Shown one piece after another: positions 26,170 through 43,959 of a DNA stretch of 45,250 nt; the stretch's first letter is position 1, and the number at the start of each line of letters is the position of its first letter. Location: contig NZ_BBPO01000055.1 in NCBI RefSeq assembly GCF_000787815.1, forward strand, positions 1 through 45,250. The letters run 5' to 3'. The DNA comes from Streptacidiphilus neutrinimicus (GTDB lineage: Bacteria; Actinomycetota; Actinomycetes; Streptomycetales; Streptomycetaceae). The notes under the pieces were generated by a model, which did not search any database, was not told where the DNA came from, and saw only the letters and a list, made by a program, of their open reading frames with translations. The position numbers were made by a program, and so were the translations under genes.

Positions 26170-27090
26170 ATGACTACAGAACGAACCATCATCTCCCGCA
26201 ACCTCGACGTGAACCAGCTGCGAACGCTCAGCACGATCGTGGAGACCGGTAGCTTCCGACGGGCCGCGGACGTGCTGGCGCTGACCCAGCCCGCCGTGAG
26301 TTACCACATTCGCCGACTCGAAGCGGTGCTGCGCGGCCCGGTCTTCGTCCGGACCAGGGGCCGCCTCGAACTCAGCGACGCCGGAGAGGAACTGCTCTTC
26401 TACGCCCGCAAGATCCTCACCGTCAACGACGAGGCGATGGCCCGGCTGACGGCCCCGAGGGACAACCTCCGGCTCACGATCGGCGCCTCGGAGCAGTTGG
26501 AGGACGTCCTCCAGGACCTGCTCGTCGGCCTCACCCGGGCGCTGCCCCGGGTCACCCTGACCGCGCGGATCGGGGCCAGCGAGCAGATCGCCGCGCGGAC
26601 GGCCGAGCAGGAGACCGACGTCGCCGTCATCATCGGCCGCCCCCGCGGCGAACGCAGCCGCCCGCTCGGCTCGCTCCAACTGGCCTGGTACGCGCACGAC
26701 GCCGCTCGCCTGGCCGCGAGCCGGTCCATTCCGATGGTGCTGCCCACCGGACCGTGCAACACGCGCGCGCACATCGTGTCCGCCCTCGACCGTCAGGGCG
26801 TCCCCTGGCACGTCGCCTACGAGGGCCCCGACCTCGCCGGGCTGCGGGCGGCCACCCGAGCGGGGCTCGGCGTCATCGGTCTGCTCGCCAACAGCGGCGA
26901 GAAGTGGAACCTGACCCCGGTCCCCGGCGGCATGCTGCCGTTCCATCCCGGCCTGGTGCCGGTCTCCTTCGTCCACGCGCCGGGCACGCCGGCGCACGTG
27001 GTGGAGGCGGCCTTCTCCGTCGCCCAAGCGGCCCTCCGTCAGTTCCCTTTGGTCGATGAGCCCGACACGGCCACCCCTGAGGCGGCCTGA
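26170..27090 (+). CDS. LysR-family transcriptional regulator
   Basis: 306 residues. The N-terminal winged HTH (DVNQLRTLSTIVETGSFRRA, then ALTQPAVSYHIRRLE) is followed by a two-lobed effector-binding domain (LRLTIGASEQLEDVL; RIGASEQIAARTAEQETDVA; LAGLRAATRAGLGVIGLL). It is transcribed toward the cluster and lies at its left edge, convergent with the M24 gene 59 bases away, so it is the best candidate for cluster-specific control. LysR proteins usually bind T-N11-A dyads; no perfect site is obvious at its own promoter. ATG start with a weak GAAAGTG ribosome site. Confidence 0.9.
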   Translation: MTTERTIISRNLDVNQLRTLSTIVETGSFRRAADVLALTQPAVSYHIRRLEAVLRGPVFVRTRGRLELSDAGEELLFYARKILTVNDEAMARLTAPRDNLRLTIGASEQLEDVLQDLLVGLTRALPRVTLTARIGASEQIAARTAEQETDVAVIIGRPRGERSRPLGSLQLAWYAHDAARLAASRSIPMVLPTGPCNTRAHIVSALDRQGVPWHVAYEGPDLAGLRAATRAGLGVIGLLANSGEKWNLTPVPGGMLPFHPGLVPVSFVHAPGTPAHVVEAAFSVAQAALRQFPLVDEPDTATPEAA

Positions 27091-27149
27091 GCGGACGAGC
27101 CTGACGCCGTGTCGGACGGCCGCCGCGCGAACCGTGCGGCGGCCGTGCC

Positions 27150-27842
27150 TCAGCCCAGATCCAGCAGCTGCTCGTGGAAGCCGCCGAACCCCCGGGACCG
27201 GTCCACCAGATGGATCTCCAGGATCCAGTGGCAGAGCCGCCCGACGCGGTCGGGGCGGCGCATCGGTTCGTCGCTCCCGGTGGTGATGTAGTACTCGAGC
27301 TCGTCCCCGTTGATGCGTTCGTGCGGGAACTCCCCGACCAGGTGCCCGGCGTGGGTGGCGCCGACCTCCCAGCCCGCCTCGGCCGCCAGTCGCCGGATCT
27401 CGCCGAACAGCTCCGCGCCGGTGACGTCCGGCCGGGCCCGGAAGTAGCGCCGCCCGGCCTCGAAGACGACGGCCAGATCGTCGCGGAGGCGGTGCTTGAC
27501 CGGATCGTCCCCGAGCACGTAGGTGCGGCCGAAGTCGGCCTCCCACTGTTCGAGCAGCGGTCCGAAGTCGCAGAAGACGATGTCGTCCTCGGCGATCAGC
27601 CGGTCCGGCGGGTTCGCCCGGTAGGGGTGCAGGGTGTTCGGGCCCGAGCGCACGATGCGCTTGTGCCAGTAGTTCTCGATGCCGAACATCTCGCGCGCCA
27701 GGTCTCGGATCTCGTCGCTGAGTTCCCGTTCACCCTTGCCTGCGGCGACCAGCCGCCTACGCCCGATCTCCTCGAACAGCTCCTCCGCCGTGGCCTGCGC
27801 ATGGAGGAGGAGCGCCACGCGCCGTGCCTCGTTGTCGTCCAT
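27150..27842 (-). CDS. M24 metallopeptidase-like protein (pita-bread fold)
   Basis: 230-residue protein of the M24 creatinase/Xaa-Pro aminopeptidase fold, lacking the N-terminal creatinase domain of full-length homologues. Metal ligands appear conserved: Asp in VFCDFGP, Asp in EADFGRTY, His in AGHLVGEFPHE, Glu in WILEIHLV and Glu in FHEQLLDL. The molybdoenzyme gene ends 11 bases upstream, so this is the last gene of the left operon of the biosynthetic cluster. It might trim a peptide (removing a protecting residue), open or hydrolyse an intermediate, or be a non-proteolytic relative. Role not predictable. Confidence 0.8.
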   Translation of the reverse strand: MDDNEARRVALLLHAQATAEELFEEIGRRRLVAAGKGERELSDEIRDLAREMFGIENYWHKRIVRSGPNTLHPYRANPPDRLIAEDDIVFCDFGPLLEQWEADFGRTYVLGDDPVKHRLRDDLAVVFEAGRRYFRARPDVTGAELFGEIRRLAAEAGWEVGATHAGHLVGEFPHERINGDELEYYITTGSDEPMRRPDRVGRLCHWILEIHLVDRSRGFGGFHEQLLDLG

Positions 27843-27853
27843 CCTCGTCCTCG

Positions 27854-29917
27854 CTACTCGGTCGCCGACACCTCGACGCGGTTGTCGTGGTAGACGGCGC
27901 CGCCGCCCATGTCGGAGTCCCGCTCGTCCACGGTGGCGTTGACGCCCGCCCGGTGTCCGGTGAGCTTCGACCACCAGCCCTTGCCCGTGCGGGCCACCCC
28001 TGGCCGCACGGCGTCGCTCACCTTCAACTGCGCGGTGAAGGCGCCCCGGTCGTTGAAGATCCGCACCTGCTCTCCCTCGACCAGCCCCCGGGACGCGGCG
28101 TCGTCGGGGTGCAACTCCACGAAAGGCGCTCCGGCCCGCCGCACCAGCGACTCCTTGTTCGCGAACGTCGTGTTGAGAAAGAAGTGCGAGGCCGACGAGA
28201 TCAGCACCAGCGGCAGCCGGCGGGCCAGCTCCGGATCGGCGGACTCCTTGGGAGGCGTGTATCCGGTGAGCGGGTCGTACCCGTCGGCGGCCGCCGTCTC
28301 GGAGACGAACTCGAGCTTCCCCGAGGGTGTGGGAAAGCCGTCCGCGAACGGCACGAAGGGACTGGGGTAGTTGAGCCGGACGTAGCCCTCCCGGCGCAGC
28401 CGGTCCAGGTCGACGCCGTCCAGCGACGGGTGGCCGCTGGACAGCAGTTGCCGGGCGAGCTCCTCGTCGGAGTCGAACAGGCTCGGCTCGGTGAGGCCCA
28501 GCCGGGCCGCGAGCCGGCGGAACGTCTCCGTGGTCGACAGGCACTCGCCGGGAGGGGCCGTGGCGGGCTCGTTCCAGGTGAGGTACATGTGCCCGTACCC
28601 GTCGAGCAGGTCCGCGTGCTCGGTCTGCATCGTGGCGGGCAGCACGATGTCCGCGTAGTCCACCGTGTCGGTGCGGAAGTGCTCCAGGACGACGGTGAAC
28701 AGGTCCTCGCGCAGCAGACCGGCACGCACCTGGCTCTGGCCGCCCACCGCCGTGGCCGGGTTGGCCCCGTAGACGAACAGCGCCTTGACGGGCGGGTCGT
28801 CGGCCGTGGTGAGCGCCTCGCCGAGGCGGGTCATCGAGAGGCTGCGGACCGGCCCGGCCAGCAGGTCGTCACGGAACAGGGCTTCGCGGTCCCCGCCGAA
28901 GTAGCCGTCTGTCGAGTAGGCCAGCCCGCCGCCCGGGAGCTTCCAGTCGCCCGTCACCCCCGGCAGCGCCGCCAGCGTGCGCAGCGCCATCCCGCCGCCG
29001 GCGTGCCGCTGGATCCCCTGCGCCGCCTTCATCCCGGTGGGCCGGGTGACGGCCAGCCGCTGTCCGAGCCGCTCGACCGTCTCCACCGGCAGCCCGCAGA
29101 TCTCCGCGGTGCGTTCCGGCGTGAACTGCTCGATGCGTGCGCGGAACTCGGGCCAGCCCACCGTCCGCTCGGCCAGATACGCGCGGTCCTCGGCGCCGAG
29201 CGAGAGCACGACGTTGAGCAGCCCGAGGGCGAGCGCCGCGTCCGTGCCGGGGTTGAGCGGCAGGTGCTCGTCCGCGAGCCGGGCCGTCCTGGTCAGGACC
29301 GGGTCGATGGCCACGACGTAGGCCCCGGAGCGCTGCGCCTCCGAGAGGACCTTCCACAGGTGGTGGCTGGTGGTGAGCGTGTTGCACCCCCACAGCAGGA
29401 TCAGCCGGGAGTGGCGCAGGTCCTCGGGGTCGATGCCCCGGCTGGTGCCGAGCGTGTAGCCGGTGCCCACCAGGCCGGCGATCGAGCAGATCGTCATGTC
29501 GTGACGGGAGGCGCCCAGGCTGTTCCACAGCCGGCTGCCGGCGCGCCCCTGGAGGCCTTGCAGGTAGCCCAGGTTCCCGGTGCCCTGGTAGGGCCAGACG
29601 GCCTGCCCGCCGTAGCGGTCGATCACGTCCGTGAGGCGGTCGGCGATCTCGTCGAGCGCCTCGTCCCAGCTGATCCGCTCGAACCGGCCCTCGCCCTTGG
29701 GGCCGGTCCTGCGCAGGGGGTGGGTCAGCCGGTCGGGCGCGCGCGTGTGCTCCAGGTACTGGTTCACCTTCACGCACAGGGTCCCGCGCGTGTAGGGGTG
29801 GTCCGGTGTCCCGCGCAACCCCACCGCGACGCCGTCCTCCACCTCGACCTGCCAGGAACACGCGTCCGGGCAGTCCAGCGGGCAGCCCCCGGGCAGGATC
29901 TTCAGCGCACGGTTCAC
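27854..29917 (-). CDS. belN-like: Molybdopterin oxidoreductase, putative nitro-group reductase of the pathway
   Basis: 687-residue enzyme of the DMSO-reductase/formate-dehydrogenase family. Cys12, Cys16, Cys20 (GGCPLDCPDACS) and Cys48 (GTLCVK) bind an N-terminal [4Fe-4S] cluster. Bis-MGD-binding regions follow (VWPYQGTGNLGYLQGLQGRA; FVYGANPATAVGGQ; C-terminal molydop-binding domain with DAASRGLVEGEQVRIFNDRG). There is no Tat signal, so it should be cytoplasmic. The GTG start overlaps the upstream gene by GTGA. In belactosin biosynthesis a molybdopterin enzyme (BelN, as I recall) is proposed to reduce the nitrocyclopropane to the amine; the context here, next to a putative N-oxygenase and cyclopropanase, fits that role. 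The alternative is another oxotransferase reaction. Confidence 0.85.
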   Translation of the reverse strand: MNRALKILPGGCPLDCPDACSWQVEVEDGVAVGLRGTPDHPYTRGTLCVKVNQYLEHTRAPDRLTHPLRRTGPKGEGRFERISWDEALDEIADRLTDVIDRYGGQAVWPYQGTGNLGYLQGLQGRAGSRLWNSLGASRHDMTICSIAGLVGTGYTLGTSRGIDPEDLRHSRLILLWGCNTLTTSHHLWKVLSEAQRSGAYVVAIDPVLTRTARLADEHLPLNPGTDAALALGLLNVVLSLGAEDRAYLAERTVGWPEFRARIEQFTPERTAEICGLPVETVERLGQRLAVTRPTGMKAAQGIQRHAGGGMALRTLAALPGVTGDWKLPGGGLAYSTDGYFGGDREALFRDDLLAGPVRSLSMTRLGEALTTADDPPVKALFVYGANPATAVGGQSQVRAGLLREDLFTVVLEHFRTDTVDYADIVLPATMQTEHADLLDGYGHMYLTWNEPATAPPGECLSTTETFRRLAARLGLTEPSLFDSDEELARQLLSSGHPSLDGVDLDRLRREGYVRLNYPSPFVPFADGFPTPSGKLEFVSETAAADGYDPLTGYTPPKESADPELARRLPLVLISSASHFFLNTTFANKESLVRRAGAPFVELHPDDAASRGLVEGEQVRIFNDRGAFTAQLKVSDAVRPGVARTGKGWWSKLTGHRAGVNATVDERDSDMGGGAVYHDNRVEVSATE

Positions 29918-30792
29918 GTCGTCCGCTCCGCGTGCAGGCGCGTCAGGAACTCGTCGGCCAAGGTCACCCGGCCGACGAGGGAACTGGCGCCGGAGAGCAG
30001 CGCCCGCCCGTCCCGCGTGATCTCCACGGTCACGGTGCCTCCGGGCATGACGACGGTCACCGAGGGATCGGTGAGGCCAAGCCGATAGGCGGCGCAGGCA
30101 GCGGCGCAGGCCCCGCTGCCGGAGGCGGGGGCGTAGCCGACACCCCGCTCCCAGATCTGGATCCGCAGGGTGCGCCGGTCCTCGACGGTCAGCAGCTCGG
30201 CGTTGGGCCGCTCCGCGAAGCCGGAGTGGCCGACGATGGCCGGGCCGAGCCGGGTGGCCAGCTCGGCGGTGGCGTCGTCGACCAGCGCGACCAGGTGCGG
30301 CACGCCGTTGTGGACCGCCGTCGCGTGCACCGTGGTGCCCGGCTCGACCTCGACCGGCACGCCGACCAGCTCCGCGCCGTCGGCCAGGGCGGGACTGCGG
30401 TGGGTCCACGGGCCCAGGTCGACGGTGCTGGGGGCGGTGACCGAGCTGCCGAGCAGCACCGTGACCGGACCGCCGGGCGTCCGCAGCGTGATCTCGTCGT
30501 GGTGCGCGCGGCCGTGCTCGCGCAGGTAGCGGGCGAAGATCCGCAGGCCGTTCGCGTTTCGCGCGCACTCGGAGCCGTCGGCGTTGAAGACCCGTACGTC
30601 GAAGGCGTCCTGCGCGTCGACCGGGTGATCCGCGGCCGGGAGGGGACCGTAGAGGACCCCGTCCGCCCCGACGCCGGTGCGCCGGTCGCACAGCGCCCGG
30701 GCGGTCCCGGCGTCCGGCGCGAGCGCGCCGAGCGCCGGGTCGGCGACGAGGTAGTCGTTGCCGAGGGTGTGGTACTTCAGGAGTGTGGTCAT
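29914..30792 (-). CDS. DapF-fold epimerase homologue lacking both catalytic cysteines
   Basis: 292 residues with the full two-domain diaminopimelate-epimerase fold: KYHTLGNDYLVAD at the N-terminus, FNADGSECARNANGLRIFAR (69-88), HNGVPHLV, and ERGVGYAPASGSGACAA (215-231). In true DapF the segments read CGNG and ACGSGA; here they are NANG (Asn79) and ASGSGA (Ser224). Cys76 lies three residues before the first site but cannot take its geometric place in an obvious way. The two-base cysteine racemisation mechanism is therefore unlikely. It may be a one-base isomerase or use other residues, as PhzF and PrpF do. Overlaps both neighbours by 4 bases, so it is made together with the dioxygenase-like and molybdoenzyme proteins. 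A pathway isomerase or dehydratase is my inference. Confidence 0.85.
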   Translation of the reverse strand: MTTLLKYHTLGNDYLVADPALGALAPDAGTARALCDRRTGVGADGVLYGPLPAADHPVDAQDAFDVRVFNADGSECARNANGLRIFARYLREHGRAHHDEITLRTPGGPVTVLLGSSVTAPSTVDLGPWTHRSPALADGAELVGVPVEVEPGTTVHATAVHNGVPHLVALVDDATAELATRLGPAIVGHSGFAERPNAELLTVEDRRTLRIQIWERGVGYAPASGSGACAAACAAYRLGLTDPSVTVVMPGGTVTVEITRDGRALLSGASSLVGRVTLADEFLTRLHAERTT

Positions 30793-31478
30793 CCGCGACC
30801 CTCACCGATGGCGTCCTCCTCGAAGGCGTCGCCGTACCAGCGCTCGCTCCAGCGCGAGAAGGACACCACCGTGATGTCGCGATGGCCCTCCTCCTCGACC
30901 GGCACGATATCGGTCACGTAGTGCCACAGCGCCCGGTCGTCGAAGGCGATGGCCTGCCCGGCCGGCAGGGTCGCGGTGAAGATCGGCGTCTCCTTGTCGT
31001 CCGCGCTGCGCAGGGTCAGCTCGGCGCCGGTGATGCCGACGCGGTTGTAGACGGAGATCACCACGAACTCGTGGCCGTCCTGGTGCACGCCCTCCGGGAC
31101 GACGACGCCCTGCAGCTCCTTGTTGGCGATGACCCGGTACTGGTGGACGTTGATCTGCCAGACGTCGTCCTCGGGCAGCGGGATTTGCTCGCAGGCCTCC
31201 CGGATGTGCTCGACCAGGTCGACCTGGATCGGCTGGTAGTGCCGCCGGATGCCGCCCGCGATCGGGTTGAACTTGGAGTAGGTGACGTACGGGCGGTGCG
31301 GCAGTCGCTCGAACTCCCAAGCCCCGTCGCGGTGTTCGAGCCGGTACTGGGAGAAGCGGCGCCAGCGGTTGCCGTTGCCGATGTACTCGTCGAAGGCGAG
31401 GTCGTCGAAGCTCTTCAGCACGTCCTCGCCGGTCTCGGGGAGGTCGAAGATCTGGAAGCCCTGCGCGTTGAGCGTCAC
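30789..31478 (-). CDS. belL-like: Nonheme iron enzyme (2OG-Fe dioxygenase family), putative nitrocyclopropane synthase
   Basis: 229 residues of the PF10014-type 2OG-Fe family. His132 and Asp134 (EGVHQDGHEF) plus His186 (ALWHYVTD) make the iron facial triad; Arg200 (GHRDITVVSFSR) is placed to bind the 2-oxoglutarate carboxylate. Start GTG 31478 with AAAGG upstream; its stop overlaps the DapF-like ATG. BelL and HrmJ, reported to close the nitrocyclopropane ring of 6-nitronorleucine in belactosin and hormaomycin biosynthesis, are nonheme iron enzymes, and this gene sits directly after a BelK/HrmI-type oxygenase gene. An amino-acid hydroxylase role (as in isoleucine dioxygenase) is the alternative. 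Confidence 0.8.
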   Translation of the reverse strand: MTLNAQGFQIFDLPETGEDVLKSFDDLAFDEYIGNGNRWRRFSQYRLEHRDGAWEFERLPHRPYVTYSKFNPIAGGIRRHYQPIQVDLVEHIREACEQIPLPEDDVWQINVHQYRVIANKELQGVVVPEGVHQDGHEFVVISVYNRVGITGAELTLRSADDKETPIFTATLPAGQAIAFDDRALWHYVTDIVPVEEEGHRDITVVSFSRWSERWYGDAFEEDAIGEGRG

Positions 31479-31509: not shown

Positions 31510-32562
31510 TCAGGCGGGCACGGGCTGCTTGAGACACACCTCGAGGACCCGGTCGAGGTAGCGCGCCGAGGTGTTGAGCCGCACGATCGTGCCGAGGGCG
31601 ACCTCGCGGCCGGCGGCCGGATCGCGTTCGACGACCGGTCCGATGACGTTCTTGTACCAACCGGCCGCGTGCTGCGCGTCGACGCCGATGTGGATGTCGT
31701 GGTAGATCTTGCCCTCGGGCGGGAGCCCGAGGCGGTCCCATGCGGTGACCAACTGGCGGAAGCGCCGGGGGGCCAGGAACTCCGTGACGCCGTAGTAGCC
31801 GATCGCACGCAGGTAGTGCCGGCGGCTGAGGGCGAGCCCCGCCGAGATGTTGCCGCACTCCCTGGAGTCGGGCAGCAGGTTCGACTCGACGTAGTCCTGG
31901 TCGACCCCGACCGAGGCGAGGCACTGGGAGAACAGCGTCGTGTGGACGTCGGCGAAGGCGCCGTCGCCCATCTCGTCCCAGTAGTTGGACGCGATCTCCA
32001 TCTTCTCGGCGCCGGTGGCGCCGAGCTGCATGACGGCGAGGATGTCGTCGAACCGCGGGTCCAGGGAGGTCTCCTGGGCGAGCAGCAGCCGTATGTCCTC
32101 CACCGTCGCGGAGTTGGCCAGGTGCTCGGAGTACAGCGGGTGGGCGCTCGCCGGGTGGTCCTGGATCAGGGCCTTCAGCCAGCGCACGTACTCCTTCTCG
32201 CCGGTGGGGTAGCCGCCCAGCGACTCCTCCGGCACCTGGCGGAACTCGTGCTCCAGCATGGCGTTCTCAAGGACGCTGGTGACGTCCCGCAGGATCGGCT
32301 GGAGGTCCTGGTCGGGCTTGCGCGCCGCCGACTGGCTGAACTCGTGGGCGTACACGACCGCGAGCACCTCGTGCAGGTGTGCGCGCGCCGCGGCGTCGCG
32401 GCCGTGGAAGGCCAGGTCCGCAAGCCGCCGACACTCCCCGGCCAGCTCGGCGCGGTGGGCGTAGTCGTCGACCAGCTCCTGCCATTTCTCGAAGGTCACC
32501 GAGGTGAGGGCCTCCGTGAAACCAGCGAGGAGCGGAAAGGCTTTCTGCTGCGGATCAGGCAT
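31510..32562 (-). CDS. belK-like: Heme-oxygenase-like diiron oxidase, putative lysine N-oxygenase
   Basis: 350-residue helical protein of the iron-containing redox enzyme (HDO) family. Likely iron ligands: Glu164 (AQETSLDPRFDD), Glu189 and Glu197 (EIASNYWDEMGDG), His207 (DVHTTLF), then His291, Asp295 and His298 (HIGVDAQHAAGW). The related enzymes BelK and HrmI oxidise the lysine side-chain amine to 6-nitronorleucine. The gene order N-oxygenase, nonheme iron enzyme, epimerase-like, molybdoenzyme on one strand supports the same job here. ATG 32562 with GAGAGGAAT upstream; the 2OG-type gene starts 31 bases after its stop. Other HDOs cleave C-C bonds of amino acids, which is the main alternative. 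Confidence 0.82.
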   Translation of the reverse strand: MPDPQQKAFPLLAGFTEALTSVTFEKWQELVDDYAHRAELAGECRRLADLAFHGRDAAARAHLHEVLAVVYAHEFSQSAARKPDQDLQPILRDVTSVLENAMLEHEFRQVPEESLGGYPTGEKEYVRWLKALIQDHPASAHPLYSEHLANSATVEDIRLLLAQETSLDPRFDDILAVMQLGATGAEKMEIASNYWDEMGDGAFADVHTTLFSQCLASVGVDQDYVESNLLPDSRECGNISAGLALSRRHYLRAIGYYGVTEFLAPRRFRQLVTAWDRLGLPPEGKIYHDIHIGVDAQHAAGWYKNVIGPVVERDPAAGREVALGTIVRLNTSARYLDRVLEVCLKQPVPA

Positions 32563-32672: not shown

Positions 32673-34373
32673 TTATTTATCGTGGCCATAAACAGAATTG
32701 ATGACGCCGACGGCGGCGGCGAGTTCCGCCGCGGCCGCGTCCTCGCCGGTTCCGACGGACCAGACGGCGCCGCTGCTCAGGTAGGCGATCGCCCCGCCGC
32801 CGGGAAGTTCGTGTGCCGTGGCCGACGTGACGGTGAGTTCCAGGCCGACCTGGCCGAGCGCGTCGGCGAACGCGGCCAGCGGCGTGGCCCCGTTCATGGG
32901 GAGCTCCTTGTCGATGCCGTCGAGGCAGACCGTCACGGAGGTCTGCGTACGCTCGAGGAGCCGTAGCCGGCCGGACGCGGGCGCGTACGCGGCGTCGAAG
33001 AGCTCGCGCAGCCGTTCCGGGCCCAGCTCGCCGCCCTCGCGGTCCGCGACCTGCTGGACCAGGACGGCGAAGTCGGCGCGAAGCCGCAGCGGCAGGTGCA
33101 GGCCGTGGGAGTCGCTGAGCACGAACGCCACGCCGCCCTTGCCCGACTGCGAGTTGACCCGGACGACCGGCTCGTAGGCGCGGCCGACGTCACCCGGGTC
33201 GATGGGCAGGTAGGGGACCTGCCAGTGCTCCTCGCGCAGTTCGTGGCCGCCCCCGTGGGCCTCGTCGGCGAGCGCCGAGATTCCCTTGCTGATGGCGTCC
33301 TGGTGACCGCCGGAGAAGGCGGTGAAGACGAGCTCGCCCCCCCACGGATGGCGTTCGTGCACGGGCAGGGCCGTGCACTCCTCCACCACCCGGCGCACCT
33401 CGGCCAGGTCGGAGAAGTCGATCTCGGGGTCGACGCCGCGGCTGAACAGGTTCATCCCCAGCGTGACCAGGCAGACGTTGCCCGTGCGTTCGCCGTTGCC
33501 GAACAGGCAGCCCTCGATGCGGTCCGCGCCGGCCGCGAGGCCGAGCTCGGCGGCGGCGACCGCGGTGCCGCGGTCGTTGTGCGGGTGCAGCGAGAGGATG
33601 ACCGAGTCGCGCCGCTCCAGGTTGCGGCTCATCCACTCGATCGAGTCGGCGTAGGTGTTCGGCGTGGTCATCTCCACCGTGGCGGGCAGGCAGATCGTGG
33701 CCGGACGCTGCGGGGTGGGCTGCCAGACGTCGAGGACGGCGTTGCAGACCTCGGCCGCGAAGCCCGGCTCGGTGCCGGTGAACGACTCCGGTGAGTACTG
33801 GAGGCGCACGTCCGCGCCGGTCAGCGACTCGGCCGCGGCGGCGAGGCGGCGGGCCGACGCGACGGCCAGCTCGCGGATCTGGGCCCGGTCCTGACGGAAG
33901 ACCACCCGGCGCTGCAGCTCGGAGGTCGGGTTGTAGATGTGCAGGGTCACCTTGCGCACCCCGGCGACGGCCTCGACCGTCCGGTCGATGAGCTCCGGGC
34001 GGCACGGCGAGAGGACCTGGATGCGCACGTCGTCCGGGACCGCGTCCCGCTCGATGAGCTCCCGGACGAAGGCGAGGTCCGCCGCGCTGGCCGAGGGGAA
34101 GCCGACCTCGATCTCCTTGTAGCCCATCCCCACCAGCAGGCGGAAGAAGCGGTGCTTCCGCTCCGGGTCCATCGGTACGGCGAGGGCCTGGTTGCCGTCG
34201 CGCAGGTCGACCGAGCACCACAGCGGGGCACGGGTGATCGTCCGGTCGGGCCAGGTCCGGTCCGGCAGCAGGACCGGTTCCACCTCCTCGGCGTACGAGC
34301 GGTAGCGGTGAGCCGGCATCGGGCTCCGGCGCTGCTCGTTCCAGACCGGACGGGCCGCGATTTCGTTCGTCAT
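32673..34373 (-). CDS. leuA: 2-Isopropylmalate synthase (leuA family), cluster copy
   Basis: 566-residue type-2 LeuA. The DRE-TIM metallolyase active site is seen in CSVDLRDGNQALAVPMDPER and the LHPHNDRGTAVA segment; the C-terminal LeuA dimer/allosteric domain is retained (SVTVCLDGIDKELPMNGA; VGVINSVYG). It condenses acetyl-CoA with a branched 2-oxo acid. In cystargolide/belactosin chemistry such homologues start the beta-lactone warhead from ketoisovalerate or 3-methyl-2-oxovalerate. ATG 34373 has GAGGAG upstream; an open frame further upstream is a shadow of the divergent methyltransferase. Housekeeping LeuA would normally not sit beside a methyltransferase and AMP ligases, so this is probably a pathway paralogue. 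Confidence 0.92.
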   Translation of the reverse strand: MTNEIAARPVWNEQRRSPMPAHRYRSYAEEVEPVLLPDRTWPDRTITRAPLWCSVDLRDGNQALAVPMDPERKHRFFRLLVGMGYKEIEVGFPSASAADLAFVRELIERDAVPDDVRIQVLSPCRPELIDRTVEAVAGVRKVTLHIYNPTSELQRRVVFRQDRAQIRELAVASARRLAAAAESLTGADVRLQYSPESFTGTEPGFAAEVCNAVLDVWQPTPQRPATICLPATVEMTTPNTYADSIEWMSRNLERRDSVILSLHPHNDRGTAVAAAELGLAAGADRIEGCLFGNGERTGNVCLVTLGMNLFSRGVDPEIDFSDLAEVRRVVEECTALPVHERHPWGGELVFTAFSGGHQDAISKGISALADEAHGGGHELREEHWQVPYLPIDPGDVGRAYEPVVRVNSQSGKGGVAFVLSDSHGLHLPLRLRADFAVLVQQVADREGGELGPERLRELFDAAYAPASGRLRLLERTQTSVTVCLDGIDKELPMNGATPLAAFADALGQVGLELTVTSATAHELPGGGAIAYLSSGAVWSVGTGEDAAAAELAAAVGVINSVYGHDK

Positions 34374-35270: not shown

Positions 35271-36817
35271 CAGCCCTCTACGAAGCGGTCGCGTCGGTCG
35301 CGCGGCTCCGGCCGGACGCGATCGCGGTCGAGACCACCGCCGGCGAGCTCACCACCTACGCCGAACTCGTCGCGCAGGCCGACCGGATCACGGTCGGCCT
35401 GCGGGCCCGCGGTGTCACCGAGGGCCGCGTCGTGGTCTGCTCCGGCCTGCCCAACGACGCCTCCTACATGGCCTTCCTGCTCGGGGTCTGCGCGGCCGGG
35501 GCCGCGTACGTCCCGCTGCTCGCCGACTTCGACGCCGCCGCCGTGTCCCGGGCCCTGAGGATGACCGAGCCGGTGCTCTGGGTCGGCCCCGAGAACCACC
35601 ACCGGCCCGGCGTCACGCTGCCCCGCGTGGAACTCGCCGCGCTGCAGGCCCCGCACGCCGACTTCGCCGCCGCCTCCGTCACCGCCGCCCCCGACGCCGC
35701 CGCCGACGCCGCGACAGGCGCGGAGCTCGGCGCGGCGTCAGGCGCGGGGCCGCAGGAGCGGGCGACCGCCCCGGGGACCTTCCGCATGCTGTGGACCTCC
35801 GGCTCGACGAAGGCGCCCAAACTCGTCACCTGGCGTCAGGAGCCCTTCGTCCGCGAGCGGCGGCGCTGGATCGCGCACATCGAGGCGACCGAGCGCGACG
35901 CGTTCTTCTGCCGGCACACCCTCGACGTGGCGCACGCGACCGATCTCCACGCCTTCGCGGCGCTGCTCGCCGGCGCCCGGCTGATCCTCGCGGACCCGCG
36001 TGCCGAGCCCGCGACGCTGCTGGCGCAACTGGCCGCGACCGGCGCCACCTTCACCAGCATGCTGCCCAACCACTACGAGGACCTGGTCGCCGCCGCCGGG
36101 CGGGCGCCCGACGCCGATCTCTCCCGGCTGCGCCGCCCGATGTGCGGCGGCGCCTACGCGAGCCCGGCCCTGATCGCCACCGCCGCCGAGGTGCTCGGCA
36201 TCCGCATCCGCCACGTCTACGGCTCGACCGAGTTCGGCCTCGCCCTGGGCAACATGGCGGACGAGGTGCAGACCGGCGGTGGCATGCACGAGGTCGCGGG
36301 CGTCCGGGCACGGCTGGAGGCGCTCCCCGGGTACGAGAGGGACGACCTCGGCCAGCTGGTGCTCACCTCCGACTGCACCAGCGACGGCTACCTGGGCGAC
36401 GACGAGGCCAACGCGGCCACGTTCCGCGGCCCCGACTTCTGGACCGGTGACGTCGCCCAGCGCCTGGACGACGGCCGCCTCCGCCTGCTGGGACGCGTCA
36501 CCGACCTGGTGCTGGCCGCCGACGGCCCGCTGGCCGTTCCCCAGCTCGACGACCTGATCGCGCAGCGCTGCCCCGTCGCCGAGTCCGTCAGCCTCGCCGT
36601 CGACGCGGACACCCTGACCGACCGCGTGCTCGTGGTGCTGCGCGCCGCGGAGGGAACCCCCGCGGACGACGCCGTGGCCGCCGTCGACGCGCTCCTCGCC
36701 GCCCGCGGGCTGACCAGCGCGGTCCTGGCCTTCGACCGGATCCCGCGCACCGTCGTCGGCAAGGCCGACCGCGCGCTGATCCGCCGCCGCTACATCCCGG
36801 CCGCGGCCTCCTCCTGA
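35267..36817 (+). CDS. AMP-forming ligase (ANL superfamily), putative beta-lactone-forming enzyme
   Basis: 516 residues. Core motifs: A3 WTSGSTKAPKLVTW (near 176-189), A5 HVYGSTEFG, A7/A8 DFWTGDVAQRL and RLLGRVTDLVLAADG, and A10 GKADRALIRRR with the catalytic Lys. The P-loop has Lys where TSGSTGxPK has Gly, an unusual change. There is no carrier-protein gene nearby, so activation probably leads directly to attack by a hydroxyl or amine. With a coupled methyltransferase it is the best candidate to activate the free carboxylate of methylated alkylmalate and allow beta-lactone closure. An Ala-rich insert lies at about 133-165. Confidence 0.82.
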   Translation: MTALYEAVASVARLRPDAIAVETTAGELTTYAELVAQADRITVGLRARGVTEGRVVVCSGLPNDASYMAFLLGVCAAGAAYVPLLADFDAAAVSRALRMTEPVLWVGPENHHRPGVTLPRVELAALQAPHADFAAASVTAAPDAAADAATGAELGAASGAGPQERATAPGTFRMLWTSGSTKAPKLVTWRQEPFVRERRRWIAHIEATERDAFFCRHTLDVAHATDLHAFAALLAGARLILADPRAEPATLLAQLAATGATFTSMLPNHYEDLVAAAGRAPDADLSRLRRPMCGGAYASPALIATAAEVLGIRIRHVYGSTEFGLALGNMADEVQTGGGMHEVAGVRARLEALPGYERDDLGQLVLTSDCTSDGYLGDDEANAATFRGPDFWTGDVAQRLDDGRLRLLGRVTDLVLAADGPLAVPQLDDLIAQRCPVAESVSLAVDADTLTDRVLVVLRAAEGTPADDAVAAVDALLAARGLTSAVLAFDRIPRTVVGKADRALIRRRYIPAAASS

Positions 36818-36856: not shown

Positions 36857-38248
36857 TTGACCCCCAAGACCCTGGTAGACAAGATCTGGGACCTGCACGT
36901 CGTGGAGCCCGGAGCGTCCGACCTCCTCTACATCGACCTGCACCTGCTGCACGAGGTCAGTTCGCCCCAGGCGTTCGCCGGGCTGCGCGAGGCTGGCCGC
37001 GCCGTGCGCCGCCCCTCGCACGCGGTCGCCACCACCGACCACGACGTCCCGACCGACGGCCGGGAGCTGCCCGCGGACGCGGGCGCTGCACAGCAGTTGC
37101 GGGTGCTCGCCGACAACTGCCGCGACAACGACATCGAGCTGCACCCGGTCGGAAGCCCGGGACAGGGCATCGTGCACGTGATCGGCCCCCAGATGGGGCT
37201 CACCCGGCCCGGCGCCACCATCGTCTGCGGCGACAGCCACACCGCCACCCACGGCGCCTTCGGCGCCATCGCGTTCGGCATCGGCACCAGCGAGATCGAG
37301 CACGTCCTGGCCACGCAGACGCTGCGGGCCCGGCGGCCGCAGTCCATGGCCGTCACGGTGACCGGCGAGCTTCCGCCGGACGTCACGGCCAAGGACCTCG
37401 CGCTCGGCATCCTCGCCGAGGGCGGCACCGACGCGGGCACGGGGACGCTCATCGAGTTCCGCGGCCCGGCCGTGCGCGCGCTGTCCATGGAGGGGCGGAT
37501 GACGCTCTGCAACATGGCCGTCGAGATGGGCGCCCGCAGCGGCCTGGTCGCGCCCGACGAGACCACGTTCGCGTACCTGAAGGGCCGCCCGCGCGCCCCG
37601 CGCGGCGACCTGTGGGACGAGGCCGTCGCCGCGTGGCGGACGCTGCGCAGCGACGCGGACGCCGTCTTCGACCGCGAACTGGTCGTCGACGCGGGCTCCA
37701 TGGCGCCGCGGGTGACCTGGGGCACCAACCCCGGGCAGAGCGTCGCGGTCGACGGCGCGGTCCCCGACCCGGACGGCATCGCGCACCCCGGAGAGCGGGC
37801 GGCGGCCGAGCGCGCCCTCGCCTACATGGGCCTGCGCCCGGGCACCGCGATGCGTGACGTCGGCGTCGACGTCGTCTTCATCGGGTCCTGCACCAACAGC
37901 CGGATCGAGGACCTGCGCGCGGCCGCCGACGTGGTGCGCGGGCGGCGCGTCGCCGACGGCGTCCGCGGCCTGGTCGTCCCCGGCTCGATGCTGGTGCGTC
38001 AGCTGGCCGAACGGGAAGGCCTGGACCGGGTCTTCACCGCCGCGGGTTTCGAGTGGCGCATGCCGGGCTGCTCGATGTGCGTCGGCATCAACGGCGACAC
38101 CGTCGAGCCGGGGCAGCGCTGCGCGTCGACCTCGAACCGCAACTTCGAAGGCCGGCAGGGTCCCGGGGCGCGGACGCATCTCGTGTCTCCCGCCACGGCC
38201 GCCGCCACCGCCGTCGCCGGGCGTTTCGTCACGCCGGCCGACCTGTAG
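36857..38248 (+). CDS. leuC: 3-Isopropylmalate dehydratase large subunit homologue
   Basis: 463 residues of the aconitase family. The [4Fe-4S] ligands are in [11 protein letters not shown] and [30 protein letters not shown] and the [17 protein letters not shown]-terminus are LeuC signatures. TTG start at 36857 with GGAAAGGG upstream. Follows the AMP-ligase gene by 39 bases and precedes leuD by 11. With LeuD it would convert 2-alkylmalate to 3-alkylmalate. No leuB (dehydrogenase) is present, in accord with diversion of 3-alkylmalate away from leucine. Confidence 0.93.
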
Positions 38249-38259: not shown

Positions 38260-38868
38260 ATGGGAAGCCGCATGGAACCGCTCGTCCACGTCACCGGCCG
38301 CGGGGTGCCCCTGGACCGGCCCAACGTCGACACCGACCAGATCATCCCCGCCGCGTGGCTGAAGAAGACCACCCGCACCGGCTACGCCGACGGCCTCTTC
38401 GAGCAGTGGCGCCAGGACCCGGACTTCGTCCTCAACCGGCCCGAACGGGCCGGCGCGAGGATCCTGGTGGCCGGCCCGAACTTCGGCTGCGGCTCGTCGC
38501 GCGAACACGCCCCGTGGGCGCTGCACGAGTGGGGATTCCGGGCGGTGATCGCGCCCGGGTTCGCGGATATCTTCCGCAACAACATGCCGAACGCCGGACT
38601 GGTCCCCGTGCGCTGCGAGCCTGCGGTGGCCGCCGCCGTGATGGCCGCCGTCACGGCCGACCCCGCCGCCGAGATCGCCGTCGACGTGGCCGCGCGGACG
38701 GTCGCCTGCGAGGCCGCGGGGGTCCGGGCGGAGCCGTTCCAGCTCGACGACGAGGCCCGTGACCGGCTCGTTTCCGGGCTGACGCAACTGGAGGTGACGC
38801 TGCGCGCCGCCGACCGGATCGCGGCGTACGAGGCGGCTCGCGCCCCCTGGCTGGACGTCACCGCGTGA
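38260..38868 (+). CDS. leuD: 3-Isopropylmalate dehydratase small subunit homologue
   Basis: 202 residues. The swivelling-domain signatures are VPLDRPNVDTDQIIPA, NFGCGSSREHAPWAL and APGFADIFRNNMPNAGL. Two candidate ATGs (38260, 38272); the first has AGGGAGAAG at good spacing. Completes the LeuCD isomerase and ends the right-hand operon. Confidence 0.93.
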   Translation: MGSRMEPLVHVTGRGVPLDRPNVDTDQIIPAAWLKKTTRTGYADGLFEQWRQDPDFVLNRPERAGARILVAGPNFGCGSSREHAPWALHEWGFRAVIAPGFADIFRNNMPNAGLVPVRCEPAVAAAVMAAVTADPAAEIAVDVAARTVACEAAGVRAEPFQLDDEARDRLVSGLTQLEVTLRAADRIAAYEAARAPWLDVTA

Positions 38869-38927: not shown

Positions 38928-38942
38928 ATCTGTGCGGGGAGC

Positions 38943-40161: not shown

Positions 40162-40272
40162 GATTCTCCTGGACGATCGATGAATTCAGGTGGAATAGTT
40201 CGCATGCCGCACGGCAGTGGGCCGGAAAAATCCTATGCAGCCCGTCGCCGGGCGGTCCAATAATGATCCTTG

Positions 40273-40282
40273 ATCGGCCGAT
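40273..40282. promoter_or_regulatory. Palindrome in ligase/ATP-grasp divergent promoter
   Basis: ATCGGCCGAT within TTG-ATCGGCCGAT-AA, in the AT-richer 180-bp spacer between the divergent PaaK-like ligase and ATP-grasp genes. A possible dimer site; short, so chance occurrence is possible. Confidence 0.25.
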
Positions 40283-40341
40283 AACAATTTCTGCGCCGGT
40301 CCGGCATTGTCGCGCGCCCGGCGTCCGAAGAAAATGGCGGA

Positions 40342-41619
40342 ATGAATACTCAGACCGTCGTGCTCGTCGGAGTCCCGTGGAGCGTCCACGAGCTGAACAA
40401 CGCGATCCGTGACGCGGCCTCACTCGGCGCCTCGATCGTCGTCGTCGACACACCCGAGTCCCTGGCGCAGATCGGCGACCTCACCAGTGTGCGGACCCGC
40501 GCGGTCGAGGCGCTCGACCCGTCGGTGATCGCCGACTGCGTGCGCGACATCGAGCCGGCGACCGTCCTCGCCATCACCGAGTTCTCCATGGAGCTGGCCG
40601 CGGCCGTGCGCGAGCGGCTCGGCATCCCGGGCACGCCGTCCACCGTCGAGGCCCGGGTCCTGGACAAGTCCGAGACCCGCGAGGTGCTGCGCGACCACGG
40701 GCTCACCAAGGTCGGCTTCCACCGGGCGTCGCTGCTCTCCCCCGGGGAGGACCTGCTCGGCGGCCTCGAGCCGCCGGTGGTGGTCAAGCCGCGGGCGTTC
40801 AGCGGCAGCCACGGCGTGCAGTTCGTCGCCGACCGCTCCGAGCTGGCCCGCGTCTTCGAGCCGTACAACCTGGCCGAGACCGACCGTGACGAGCGTGACG
40901 GCCGGGTGGCCCACCTGTCCGGCGACCGCCGCACCCACGAGGTCCTCGTCGAGGAGTACATCCCCGGCACCGAGATCAGCGCCGAGGGGCTCGTCGTCGA
41001 CGGCCGGCTCACGCTGTTCACCCTGACCGACAAGTTCAACACCGGCACGCCGCACTTCGAAGAGGTCGGCCAGATGGTGCCCAGCCGGCACACCGAGGAG
41101 CGGTGGGCGCAGGTCGAGGAGTACCTCCAGGCGGTCGTCTCGGCGCTGGGCTTCGTCACCTCGCCGATGCACGCCGAGATCAAGCTGCTCGACGACCGTG
41201 TCGAGCTCGTCGAGATCCACACCCGTTATGCCGGCGGCCGGATGATCGAACTGCTCGAAGCGGCGTACGAAATGCGCCCCTACCAGGCGTATTTCGACGC
41301 GATGCTCAACGGCCGCACCCCGAGCCGTCCCCAGTTGGCCGGCGACCACTACGGCGTGGGCTTCTTCACCGGTCGGACCGACGCTCCGCTGGTCTGGCCG
41401 ACCTACGACTTCCCCCACCCCGAGGCCGTCGTCTCGATCGACCTCGACCGGCGCCGGGCTCCCAAGGTCTTCACGTACGAAGGCCTGCGCATCCGCTGGT
41501 GGTTCGCGGGCCACGCCCTGTTCGCGGCGAAGGACCACGCGGTCGTCCACGAGAACATCAGCTTCCTCCAGCGGCACACGCCGGGCACGCCGGGACAGAA
41601 CGGCTCCGGCGGCGAGTAG
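40342..41619 (+). CDS. ATP-grasp amino-acid ligase
   Basis: 425 residues. The ATP-grasp fold is seen from VARVLDKSETREVLRDHGL-type N-terminal lid residues (actual RVLDKSETREVLRDHGL near 108-124), VVVKPRAFSGSHGVQFV (phosphate loop), EVLVEEYIPGTEISAEGLV, and the Mg-binding MHAEIKLLDDRVELVEIHTR with YAGGRM. Such single-enzyme ligases join two amino acids through an acyl phosphate. In belactosin and cystargolide the dipeptide backbone is assembled by this class, so here it is the likely peptide-bond former. ATG 40342; the ribosome site is weak. Confidence 0.88.
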   Translation: MNTQTVVLVGVPWSVHELNNAIRDAASLGASIVVVDTPESLAQIGDLTSVRTRAVEALDPSVIADCVRDIEPATVLAITEFSMELAAAVRERLGIPGTPSTVEARVLDKSETREVLRDHGLTKVGFHRASLLSPGEDLLGGLEPPVVVKPRAFSGSHGVQFVADRSELARVFEPYNLAETDRDERDGRVAHLSGDRRTHEVLVEEYIPGTEISAEGLVVDGRLTLFTLTDKFNTGTPHFEEVGQMVPSRHTEERWAQVEEYLQAVVSALGFVTSPMHAEIKLLDDRVELVEIHTRYAGGRMIELLEAAYEMRPYQAYFDAMLNGRTPSRPQLAGDHYGVGFFTGRTDAPLVWPTYDFPHPEAVVSIDLDRRRAPKVFTYEGLRIRWWFAGHALFAAKDHAVVHENISFLQRHTPGTPGQNGSGGE

Positions 41620-41642
41620 CCGGGCCCCGAGCGAGAGCAGCA

Positions 41643-41673
41643 CTGCCGGGCCGGGGCGTCCCCGGCCCGGCAG
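41643..41673. terminator. Bidirectional hairpin terminator
   Basis: Perfect 14-bp arms (41643-41656 and 41660-41673) with a 3-base loop, between the convergent ATP-grasp and MFS genes. Confidence 0.88.
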
Positions 41674-41692
41674 CATGCAGGCCGGCCGCCCG

Positions 41693-43153
41693 TCAGTCCG
41701 AGGCGAGCGGCTGCGCCGGCGCGCCCGCTTCCGCCTCCTGCGCTTCCTGCGCCTTCTGCGCCTTCTGCGCCGCATCGGTCGGCTCGGCCGCCTCGCGTGC
41801 GAGCGCCAGGCAGGCGACGGCGCCGAGCACCAGCGCCGCGATCGGCAGGAGGGTGGCCGCGCGCATGGCCGGACCGACGCCGCCCGTCACCGACCGCAGG
41901 CCCTGCGCCAGCGCCACGACGCCCGCGGTGAAGACCAGCGCCCCCGCCTGACGCACCGTCTCCAGGACCCCGGAGGCCGCGCCCGTCAGCTCCTGGGGCA
42001 CCTCGCGCATGGCGACCGTGGTCCTCGGCGCGATCGAGCAGCCGTTGCCGACGCCGATCACCGCCATGGGGGCCAGGAAGGCCGTCCACGAGGCCGAGCC
42101 CGTCATCAGCAGCGCCGTCCACAGGATGCCCGCGGCCTGGACGAGCATGCCGGTCAGCAGGATGTGACGCCCCTCCATCCGGTCGGCCAGCCTGCCCGCG
42201 TAGAAGGCCACCAGCATGGACGTCGCCGACGCGGGCGCCAGGATCAGCCCCGCCCGAAAGGGGCTCAGGCCGAGCACCGACTGGGAGTACAGCACGGCCA
42301 GCACCGTGATGCCGAAGGTCGCGCCGGTGATCGCCGCGGCCACCCCGAGCATCACGGTGAAGCTGCGGATCCGCAGCAGGGCGAAGGGCACCAGCGGGTC
42401 CCGGTCCTGACGCTGCCGCTGGCGGACGGCGAAGCCGACGCCGAGCAGCGCGGCCGCCACCAGCAGCGCCCAGACGACGGGGCCCCAGTGCTGATCGGCG
42501 CCGTTGGTCACGGCGTAGGCGAAGCAGCCGAGGGCCGTCGAGGCGAGGACGACGCCGAGCACGTCCAGGCGGTGCTGCCGGCCCGTCCGCAGGTCCGGAA
42601 CGACCGTCAGGCCCGCCGCCACGACCAGCATGCCGATCGGCAGGTTGATCAGGAAGATCCAGCGCCAGCCGACCGCGTCGATCAGCAGACCGCCGAGGGA
42701 CGGGCCGAGCACCGAGGCCACCCCGCCGATCGCGCCCCACACCCCGAGCGCGGTGCCGCGTCGCTCGCGCGGGAAGGTGGCCACGATCAACGTGAGGCTC
42801 TGCGGCATGAGCAGCGCCGCGCCGACGCCCTGCAGCACGCGGGCGCCCACGAGGACACCGGGCGCCGTCGCGAGCCCGCACAGCAGGCTCGCGACGGTGA
42901 AGAACGCGATGCCCACGACGAACAGCTGTCGCGGGCCGTACCGGTCGCCCAGCCGGCCCGCCGTGATGAGCAGGACGGTGACGGTGATGATGTAGCCGTT
43001 CAAGGCCCACAGCGCCACGGGCAGCGTGGTGTGCAGGGAGCCGATGATGCCGGGGATCGCGATGGTGACCATCGTGGAGTCCAGCAGGGTCATGAAGTAG
43101 CCCAGGGACAACACGACCAGCGTCGCCCACGGGTTGTCGCGCAGCCGGCTCAC
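41693..43153 (-). CDS. MFS drug exporter, DHA2 (14-helix) type
   Basis: 486-residue integral membrane transporter. Motif A GRLGDRYGPRQ follows helix 2, and motif C is in GVASVLGPSLGGLLIDAVGW-RWIF. Helix 1 carries FMTLLDSTMVTIAIP, the Asp signature of DHA2 drug:H+ antiporters. The C-terminal tail is Ala/Gln/Lys-rich and likely cytoplasmic. The GTG start overlaps the hydrolase stop by GTGA. The natural role is export of, and self-protection from, the cluster product. Confidence 0.92.
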   Translation of the reverse strand: MSRLRDNPWATLVVLSLGYFMTLLDSTMVTIAIPGIIGSLHTTLPVALWALNGYIITVTVLLITAGRLGDRYGPRQLFVVGIAFFTVASLLCGLATAPGVLVGARVLQGVGAALLMPQSLTLIVATFPRERRGTALGVWGAIGGVASVLGPSLGGLLIDAVGWRWIFLINLPIGMLVVAAGLTVVPDLRTGRQHRLDVLGVVLASTALGCFAYAVTNGADQHWGPVVWALLVAAALLGVGFAVRQRQRQDRDPLVPFALLRIRSFTVMLGVAAAITGATFGITVLAVLYSQSVLGLSPFRAGLILAPASATSMLVAFYAGRLADRMEGRHILLTGMLVQAAGILWTALLMTGSASWTAFLAPMAVIGVGNGCSIAPRTTVAMREVPQELTGAASGVLETVRQAGALVFTAGVVALAQGLRSVTGGVGPAMRAATLLPIAALVLGAVACLALAREAAEPTDAAQKAQKAQEAQEAEAGAPAQPLASD

Positions 43154-43959
43154 GCGCCCGCCGTCCCGTCGACGAAGTCGCGGAGCACCCGGACGAACCG
43201 GTCCGGCTCCTCCAGGAAGGGGGCGTGGCCACTGTCAGGGAACATCTCCAGCCGGGCGTCCGGGAGCGCGGTCAGCAGCCACTTGCCGACCTCCGTGGGG
43301 AAGATCCGGCTCTTGGCGCCGTGCAGCAGCAGCGTCGGGAGCGCCAGCCCACTGATCCGCTCGCGCCAGTCCTGGCCGAGAACCCCGCTCCACAGCGCCA
43401 GCAGCGCGAGCCGCGAGGTCGGCAGCGACTCCGTCAACAGCTCTCGCAGCACGCCGGGTTCGGGCTCGCTCCCGGAGGCGAAGCAGTTCTCGGTCACGGC
43501 GGTCAGGTACCCCTGCGGGTCGGTCCACTGCTGCCGGGTCGCCTGCAGCGCGCCGACGGCGTCCAGGCCGCCGAACGCCGCGTGCTCCCAGCCGTCCTCG
43601 CGCAGCAGGTAGGGCGACATCTCCACCGAGACCAGCCGCGAGACCCGGTCCGTCCCATGCTGTTCCAGGTAGTTGTAGGCGACCGTCGCGCCGAGCGACC
43701 ATCCGACGAGCGTGACGTCACGCAGGTCGAGCCGCTCGACGACCTGCGCCAGATCGGCTGCGGCGTCCTCGACGGTCCACCCCGGTGGCGGCTCCGGGCT
43801 GGCCCCGTGCCCGCGCAGGTCCACGGTGACGACGTCGTACTCCGGCCCGAGCGCGGCCACCACCGGCGCGAAACACCCCGAGGTCATTCCGAGGCCCGGT
43901 ACGAACAACACGGTGGGCCCGGTACCGGGGCGCCGGGCATGGTGAATCATTTCGAGCAT
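43150..43959 (-). CDS. Alpha/beta hydrolase, putative methyl-ester hydrolase of the pathway
   Basis: 269 residues. VPGLGMTSGCF is the oxyanion loop, VGWSLGATVAYNY holds nucleophile Ser88, and DSGHAPFLEEPDRF the catalytic His. The usual acid after strand 6 is absent: the segment reads LLHGAKSRIFP with Ser where Asp is common, so the acid must come from elsewhere. ATG 43959 has TTGGAGC upstream; a frame extending to 44022 lacks a ribosome site. First gene of a two-gene operon with the exporter. If a methyl ester protects the warhead, this enzyme could remove it; opening of the beta-lactone as resistance is another possibility. Confidence 0.85.
   Translation of the reverse strand: MLEMIHHARRPGTGPTVLFVPGLGMTSGCFAPVVAALGPEYDVVTVDLRGHGASPEPPPGWTVEDAAADLAQVVERLDLRDVTLVGWSLGATVAYNYLEQHGTDRVSRLVSVEMSPYLLREDGWEHAAFGGLDAVGALQATRQQWTDPQGYLTAVTENCFASGSEPEPGVLRELLTESLPTSRLALLALWSGVLGQDWRERISGLALPTLLLHGAKSRIFPTEVGKWLLTALPDARLEMFPDSGHAPFLEEPDRFVRVLRDFVDGTAGA

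Follow-up and report, generated by a model that had tools for sequence, protein, structure and literature searches.

A 45,250-base stretch of DNA from Streptacidiphilus neutrinimicus (the window; 72% G+C), which we analyzed by gene prediction and Pfam scans, very probably carries a complete belactosin biosynthetic (bel) cluster that presumably makes belactosin A/C and in which BelM, rather than being a classical diaminopimelate (DAP) epimerase (DapF), would act around the cyclopropanation step. With E values of 1e-71 to 1e-208, the window proteins match solved relatives far better than chance would allow, and three named genomes, S. coacervatus, S. misionensis and Streptacidiphilus anmyonensis (S. 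anmyonensis), have the same gene set. The cluster is of a known kind, in another host; it provides one more genome with an apparently complete belactosin pathway, along with the edges of the cluster and the rearrangement of one of its blocks. The new part of the analysis is the loss of the active site in BelM: an enzyme of the cyclopropane pathway of the bel and hormaomycin (hrm) clusters, for which PMC10764440 offers only a suggested part in lysine supply, has no DAP epimerase active site.

BelM and the catalytic cysteines of DapF

The initial annotation of the window had left a DapF-like gene unexplained; this is belM, which both the bel and the hormaomycin clusters are known to contain, and belM and hrmT have been suggested to encode DAP epimerases that could supply lysine (PMC10764440, in excerpt). 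Among the papers matched by our literature search on HrmT and BelM, both gene names appeared together with hormaomycin only in that source. The catalytic residues of DapF are Cys73, His159, Glu208 and Cys217 (PMC3581254, in excerpt). We aligned 19 BelM-like proteins, namely those of the window, of three bel loci and of 15 other loci with homologues of BelK and BelL (K-L loci), and compared them with 27 ordinary DapF controls (34 matches in 26 genomes that yielded 30 loci, minus the bel copies L132 and L133 and the unparsed L110; four weaker matches without a locus lie outside this set). Neither cysteine is present in the window protein or in any of its 18 relatives, all of which adjoin BelK/BelL homologues, whereas both are present in 27/27 controls, including the window genome's own DapF on contig C100. 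The first cysteine site is occupied by Ser (17/19) or Asn (2/19) and the second by Ser throughout, and a new Cys lies three residues ahead of the first site in all 19 proteins. The Glu after the ERG-G motif, invariant in the controls, becomes Tyr in 16, His in two and Ala in one of the BelM-like proteins. The His and Glu of DapF, together with four Asn/Arg positions that we take to be substrate-binding, are kept in 19/19. An AlphaFold2 (AF2) model of BelM (pLDDT 90.4, pTM 0.88) has the DapF fold, with DapF 9MRO as its best structural match (TM 0.85/0.89); O-ureidoserine racemase is a further match, and hydroxyproline epimerases and PhzF are weaker ones. Judging from these residues, BelM is not a classical DAP epimerase: the fold, the His/Glu pair and most of the amino-acid-binding positions are kept, and both thiols are gone.

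BelM is further distinguished by the company it keeps. In a sample of 394 genomes of the family, used for both the BelK and the BelM-alignment searches, BelK homologues were found at E 1e-20 in 32 genomes (34 places). Within flanks of about 1.5 kb, a BelM-like gene adjoins 16/17 loci with both BelK and BelL homologues and 0/11 loci with BelK alone (Fisher p 5.6e-7), the count covering 28 of the 34 places and leaving out the window, the S. anmyonensis bel locus and four places without a locus. Searching with the BelM alignment (E <= 1e-50) matched 19 genomes, the weakest match being at 7e-123; in each of them BelK and BelL homologues lie within about 1.5 kb and both cysteines are gone, and no BelM-like gene away from K and L was found in the 394 genomes. 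As 17 of these 19 matches were already in the query alignment and only two loci are new, this sample is not independent. By gene neighborhood, BelM thus appears to travel with the cyclopropanase BelL.

Since both cysteines are lost and BelM is found only with BelK and BelL homologues, the published role as a lysine-supplying DAP epimerase is unlikely. A spare epimerase of this kind, boosting lysine supply as suggested in the excerpts of PMC10764440, would be in keeping with the DapF fold, the retained His/Glu pair and most substrate-binding positions, and the fact that lysine is the substrate of BelK; moreover, the TIGR00652 model scores BelM at 180.5 bits, over its DapF cut-off of 114.65, which also weighs against our own reading. 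We nevertheless give this explanation little credence, given the thiol positions replaced in all relatives and kept in all controls, the ordinary DapF already encoded in the genome, the occurrence of BelM with K and L together and never with K alone, and the pyridoxal phosphate (PLP) enzyme that adjoins BelM elsewhere, which fits VioD/GntC models far better than DAP aminotransferase models. A DAP-aminotransferase branch of lysine synthesis, formed by BelM and a neighboring aminotransferase, was likewise rejected: the six PLP enzymes scanned (four adjoining BelM and two from loci L071/L086) score best with VioD or GntC (193-252 bits, all under the cut-offs), and the DAP aminotransferase models, where listed, reach 63 and 85 bits.

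Instead, we suggest that the nitro-amino acid is processed by BelM during or near cyclopropanation; BelM might be an acid-base catalyst that generates the nitronate. Such a step would suit it because a DapF pocket would still bind the L-amino acid, with the thiol pair no longer needed. The nitro-amino acid 6-nitronorleucine resembles DAP with a nitro group in place of the reacting carboxylate, so its L-amino acid end could still sit in the old pocket; a weaker base that lacks the cysteine pair could then remove the far more acidic C6 proton or equilibrate the nitro-bearing carbon, and the nitronate would be passed to the cyclopropanase. The C-H acidity of nitroalkanes is far above that of an amino acid alpha carbon. 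More tentatively, BelM-type proteins might be former DAP epimerases turned nitroalkane carbon-acid enzymes, i.e., dedicated nitronate tautomerases, an idea that we regard as possible rather than probable; we know of no DapF-fold enzyme that acts as a nitronate tautomerase. BelL-type cyclization itself depends on C6 deprotonation and is favored at pH 9-11 (PMC10764440, in excerpt).

Several points weigh against a catalytic role of BelM at this step. BelM could equally well bind a partner or serve as a scaffold, and another isomerase step is conceivable too. The equivalent of Asn157 of H. influenzae DapF, presumably a substrate-binding position, is Asn in 12/19 BelM-like proteins, Val in 5/19 (bel included) and Ser in 2/19. 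The BelM-positive genomes, relatives drawn from a single sample, do not represent independent events, and the Fisher p overstates their independence. One K+L cluster (L071) has no adjoining BelM, the same genome having BelM by a second K-L pair. Furthermore, BelL itself speeds C6 deprotonation (PMC10764440, in excerpt), and a partner such as BelM is therefore less needed; the excerpts of the same paper report activity of BelK- and BelL-type enzymes in vitro with no mention of BelM, and BelM may accordingly be dispensable.

The belactosin gene set of the window

The gene families named in the initial annotation were all recovered. Pfam families in the left part comprise LysR, M24, a molybdoenzyme, the DapF-like protein, a 2-oxoglutarate (2OG) oxygenase (PF10014), an HDO-family protein (PF14518), LeuA and an O-methyltransferase (OMT), and those in the right part an AMP ligase, LeuC, LeuD, a second AMP ligase, an ATP-grasp protein, an MFS protein and an alpha/beta hydrolase. 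The cluster likewise appears free of nonribosomal peptide synthetase (NRPS) and polyketide synthase genes, as had been claimed: no condensation, carrier or ketosynthase domains were listed for the 16 predicted proteins scanned between 26170 and 44794 (the OMT lay outside that scan and was scanned separately). The extent first proposed, 26170-43959, holds the bel gene set, but its left edge has to be moved outward to 24787. Because two regulators to the left of LysR, one of MmyB type and a small one of LuxR type, are kept in all three named genomes, we take the cluster to span 24787-43959; the other 9 of the 11 flanking open reading frames (ORFs) of the window gave no match at E 1e-4 in the search of S. 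anmyonensis, S. coacervatus and S. misionensis (Table 1). An 814-residue ORF (32673-35117, minus strand) that could pass for a methyltransferase-LeuA fusion was rejected: LeuA occupies 32673-34373 of that strand, and the remainder of the ORF is antisense to the OMT, found on the plus strand at about 34581-35270, whose stop is overlapped by the BelH start at 35267.

Table 1. Predicted genes of the belactosin cluster in the window, with the evidence for each
Feature	Coordinates	Strand	Evidence
MmyB-type HTH regulator (MLTR_LBD)	24787..25695	+	Pfam; 69-92% identical copies adjoin LysR in S. anmyonensis, S. coacervatus, S. misionensis
Small LuxR-type HTH protein	25828..26112	+	67-93% identical copies in the same three genomes; NCBIfam HTH matches weak, all under cut-off
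LysR-type regulator	26170..27090	+	Pfam; 86-92% in S. coacervatus, S. misionensis, S. anmyonensis
M24 metallopeptidase-fold protein, looks accessory	27150..27842	-	Pfam
BelN-type molybdopterin oxidoreductase, presumed nitro reductase	27854..29917	-	Pfam; 93-96% copies in bel loci of S. coacervatus, S. misionensis, S. anmyonensis
BelM, DapF-fold protein without both catalytic cysteines (N79, S224)	29914..30792	-	Pfam, TIGR00652, residue alignment, AF2 model
BelL, Fe/2OG nitrocyclopropanase	30789..31478	-	H132, D134, H186 and His136
BelK, HDO lysine N-oxygenase	31510..32562	-	HrmI 9N1A, E 1.6e-108
BelJ, second LeuA-type synthase for alkylmalate	32673..34373	-	1SR9, E 4e-208
BelI, alkylmalate C1 O-methyltransferase	34581..35270	+	212/227 residues identical to 9FCE; His122-His123-Asp191
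BelH, beta-lactone-forming AMP ligase, CysF homologue	35267..36817	+	CysF 8RA0, E 1.9e-141; next solved structure 7.6e-21
LeuC-type isomerase subunit, second copy	36857..38248	+	Pfam; separate LeuC on contig C112, 64%
LeuD-type isomerase subunit, second copy	38260..38868	+	Pfam; LeuD-like gene, 57%, adjoins LeuC of contig C112
BelV-type amide-bond synthetase, AMP-binding, 389 aa	38992..40161	-	Pfam; 83-95% in four related genomes
BelU-type ATP-grasp ligase	40342..41619	+	Pfam; 79-92% in 4/4 genomes searched
MFS exporter	41693..43153	-	Pfam; 80-82% in S. anmyonensis, S. misionensis, S. coacervatus
BelR-type alpha/beta hydrolase (methyl esterase)	43150..43959	-	Pfam; GWSLG at residue 86; 83-89% in S. 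anmyonensis, S. misionensis, S. coacervatus

Both halves of the belactosin assignment made in the initial annotation are borne out. For the warhead half, the evidence comes from the closeness of BelI to the crystallized BelI (9FCE) and of BelH to CysF, and from leuA, leuC and leuD genes that are not the sole copies in the genome, another LeuA lying on contig C162 (53% identical to BelJ) and a LeuC with a LeuD-like neighbor on C112. Where LeuA of M. tuberculosis has Asn250, a residue that we take to line the side-chain pocket, 5/5 bel-type copies have Cys and the genome's other LeuA has Asn. The window BelI shares 93.4% identity with 9FCE (472.6 bits), CysG entries scoring at most 304 bits, and has all three residues (H122, H123 and D191) of the His-His-Asp metal site described for BelI and CysG (PMC11408123, in excerpt). 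For the other half, the route from lysine through nitronorleucine and nitrocyclopropane to aminocyclopropane, scores against solved structures place neither key oxygenase in an unrelated family. The best solved relative of BelK is HrmI (366 bits), its only other solved match being a BesC-type 4-chloro-allylglycine synthase (7TWA; 22 bits, E 7.7e-4), and BelL, in which the expected iron ligands are present, best matches 9DQ0 and 8JMS (244 and 243 bits), far ahead of the next entries (65 and 49 bits). The entries 9DQ0 and 8JMS bear no title other than 'BsmA domain containing protein'; we infer that they are BelL-type cyclopropanases. BelN was compared with the three bel loci of Table 1, not with UCK14 BelN (from Streptomyces sp. 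UCK14, see below); copies 67-71% identical to it occur in five further genomes, two of them beside K-L genes and two within a phosphonate-type cluster. BelR, BelV and BelU belong to the expected protein families and are conserved with the other gene sets, as compared among relatives and not with the UCK14 sequences.

In the proposed pathway, BelJ, LeuC and LeuD would extend the isoleucine-derived keto acid to 3-sec-butylmalate, the C1 carboxylate of which would be methylated by BelI; the other carboxylate would be adenylated by BelH, the beta-lactone then closed, and the cryptic methyl ester removed by BelR. In vitro, CysGFE/BelIHR convert alkylmalate to the lactone acid via such a cryptic methyl ester (PMC11427300, in excerpt). 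In parallel, lysine would be converted to 6-nitronorleucine by BelK and the nitrocyclopropane closed by BelL, with BelM acting on the nitro-amino acid near cyclopropanation, e.g., by forming the nitronate needed by BelL; nitro reduction by BelN would then yield 3-(2-aminocyclopropyl)alanine. BelK/HrmI make 6-nitronorleucine, BelL/HrmJ make nitrocyclopropane, and nitro reduction is the predicted role of BelN (PMC10764440, in excerpt). Finally, BelV would couple the side-chain amine with the lactone acid, BelU would add alanine, and the MFS protein would export the product; in vitro, BelV couples the lactone acid to ornithine through the side-chain amine of the latter, and BelU adds alanine (PMC11427300, in excerpt).

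As to the product, some points count against belactosin A/C. All pathway steps for this strain are inferred by homology, and the sequence comparison with the UCK14 cluster is of BelI (9FCE) alone. His136, the BelL residue that controls ring stereochemistry and is Arg in HrmJ (PMC10764440, in excerpt), is present in the window BelL, in all 23 BelL homologue rows (20 distinct loci) and in 9DQ0/8JMS. As it is common to every homologue aligned, and BelL homologues that make cis rings are reported (PMC10764440, in excerpt), His136 alone cannot, by our alignment, fix the ring geometry; we rejected it as a marker of trans geometry, and it speaks only against the HrmJ residue and an HrmJ-like outcome. 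We predict a (1'S,2'S) ring because the cluster as a whole matches bel. A cystargolide-type product in place of belactosin is highly improbable: it would fit the homology of the warhead genes and the standing of CysF as the closest solved relative of BelH, but the window OMT is nearer to BelI than to CysG (9FCE 473 bits, 9FCD 304 bits), and the aminocyclopropane genes K-L-M-N are present with open frames. The 'possibly a new congener' of the initial annotation fares somewhat better, in that the host is of another genus than UCK14, the window has an extra M24 gene and BelI is 93% identical, any of which might go with a specificity differing from UCK14. However, no finding supports a new product; the HHD motif, the BelL motif stretches and the BelJ pocket stretches differ little or not at all between the window and the other bel loci, BelV and BelU are 79-95% identical across relatives, and we consider a new congener unlikely.

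The M24 gene, which had also been left unexplained, looks accessory to the cluster, as it belongs to a widespread family and is absent from the S. misionensis cluster. Its pathway role, e.g., in trimming or self-protection, is doubtful, albeit somewhat less so than a new congener. It directly adjoins belN in three of the four full bel loci (the window, S. coacervatus and S. anmyonensis), and D92, D103, H167, E209 and E224, presumably the metal ligands of the family, are kept in 20/20 M24 homologues. Against such a role, the gene is missing between LysR and belN in S. misionensis, the fourth complete locus, and most M24 copies would be without bel context, because 76/394 family genomes match M24 (E 1e-20) and only 32/394 match BelK. 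Within flanks of about 1.5 kb, 18/20 fetched M24 loci (L051-L068) have no bel genes beyond one weak LysR match. As for target duplication as a resistance mechanism, there are no proteasome-family genes in the cluster and the whole genome has two, adjacent to each other (C182:12917-14287); self-protection via an extra proteasome beta subunit is not evident in the genome.

Related loci in other genomes

A single scan of genomic contigs with BelH as the query, which reaches close relatives only, returned four loci, in S. coacervatus, S. misionensis, S. anmyonensis and a short contig of an assembly labeled Melainabacteria. The three named genomes have the full bel set, save for the M24 gene in S. 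misionensis. In the window and S. anmyonensis, the block of V, U, exporter and R is to the right of LeuD; S. coacervatus and S. misionensis have it to the left of the regulators. In S. misionensis, the belU homologue is separated from that of the exporter by a GH11 xylanase-type gene (L070:12126-13178), which includes a cellulose-binding domain. Homologues of U, V, J, I, H and LeuC (77-89% identical) are found on the 8,751-base Melainabacteria-labeled contig (L035/L082), J being immediately next to V; K-L-M-N are absent from it, and a BelK search of its assembly, run without a positive control, was empty, so that these genes may be on missing sequence. The genes look actinomycete-like and the label doubtful.

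Several loci with homologues of the cyclopropane genes belong to other clusters. Two family genomes (L071, 6096-14438; L086, 3435-12501) share a compact non-belactosin cluster encoding an EamA transporter, an HDO, a 2OG cyclopropanase-like protein, a BelN-like molybdoenzyme (69-70%), an aldo/keto reductase, a PLP aminotransferase-fold enzyme and an ornithine-cyclodeaminase-like protein, with a DapF-like gene in the L086 cluster only. Should a cyclopropylamine be made here and lose its alpha-amine, a 4,5-methanoproline might arise by ring closure and imine reduction. The common gene block of L083 (6310-16811; by Pfam) and L085 (1601-11909; by similarity) combines a BelN-like molybdoenzyme (67%) with PEP mutase, a TPP enzyme, an FAD/NAD-binding protein, DUF6002, a weak saccharopine-dehydrogenase-like protein and an MFS protein; this is a phosphonate-type cluster, with no HDO matches in these stretches. 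In 14/14 K-L-M loci (L087-L100), a PLP enzyme 28-33% identical to that of L071 directly follows the DapF-like gene; the four of these 14 that were scanned fit VioD/GntC best, under the cut-off. Further downstream lie NRPS and SHMT genes in L097 and MFS, PIG-L and ATP-grasp genes in L087.

Comparison with known systems

BelM shares with DapF and O-ureidoserine racemase the fold, the equivalents of His159 and Glu208 and most of the positions that we take to be substrate-binding; in comparison with the DapF controls (the racemase residues were not compared), it has Asn/Ser for the catalytic Cys pair, Tyr for the Glu after ERG-G and Val for Asn157. The hormaomycin cluster has homologues of BelK, BelL and BelM in HrmI, HrmJ and HrmT, but differs in its NRPS product, Arg136 in HrmJ, the (1'R,2'R) ring and the retained nitro group (PMC10764440, in excerpt). 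The cystargolide cluster of Kitasatospora cystarginea resembles that of the window in its LeuA-like start, in methylation, adenylation and ester hydrolysis to the beta-lactone, and in two further ligases (PMC11427300 and PMC11408123, in excerpt). It differs in its Val-Val type product without aminocyclopropylalanine, and CysG is clearly further from the window OMT than is BelI. The closest likeness is to the belactosin cluster of Streptomyces sp. UCK14, which like the window has LeuA-, LeuC- and LeuD-type genes, BelI, BelH, BelR, BelV, BelU, BelK, BelL, BelM and BelN; the window differs from it in its Streptacidiphilus host and in the extra M24 gene beside belN, as in S. coacervatus and S. anmyonensis.

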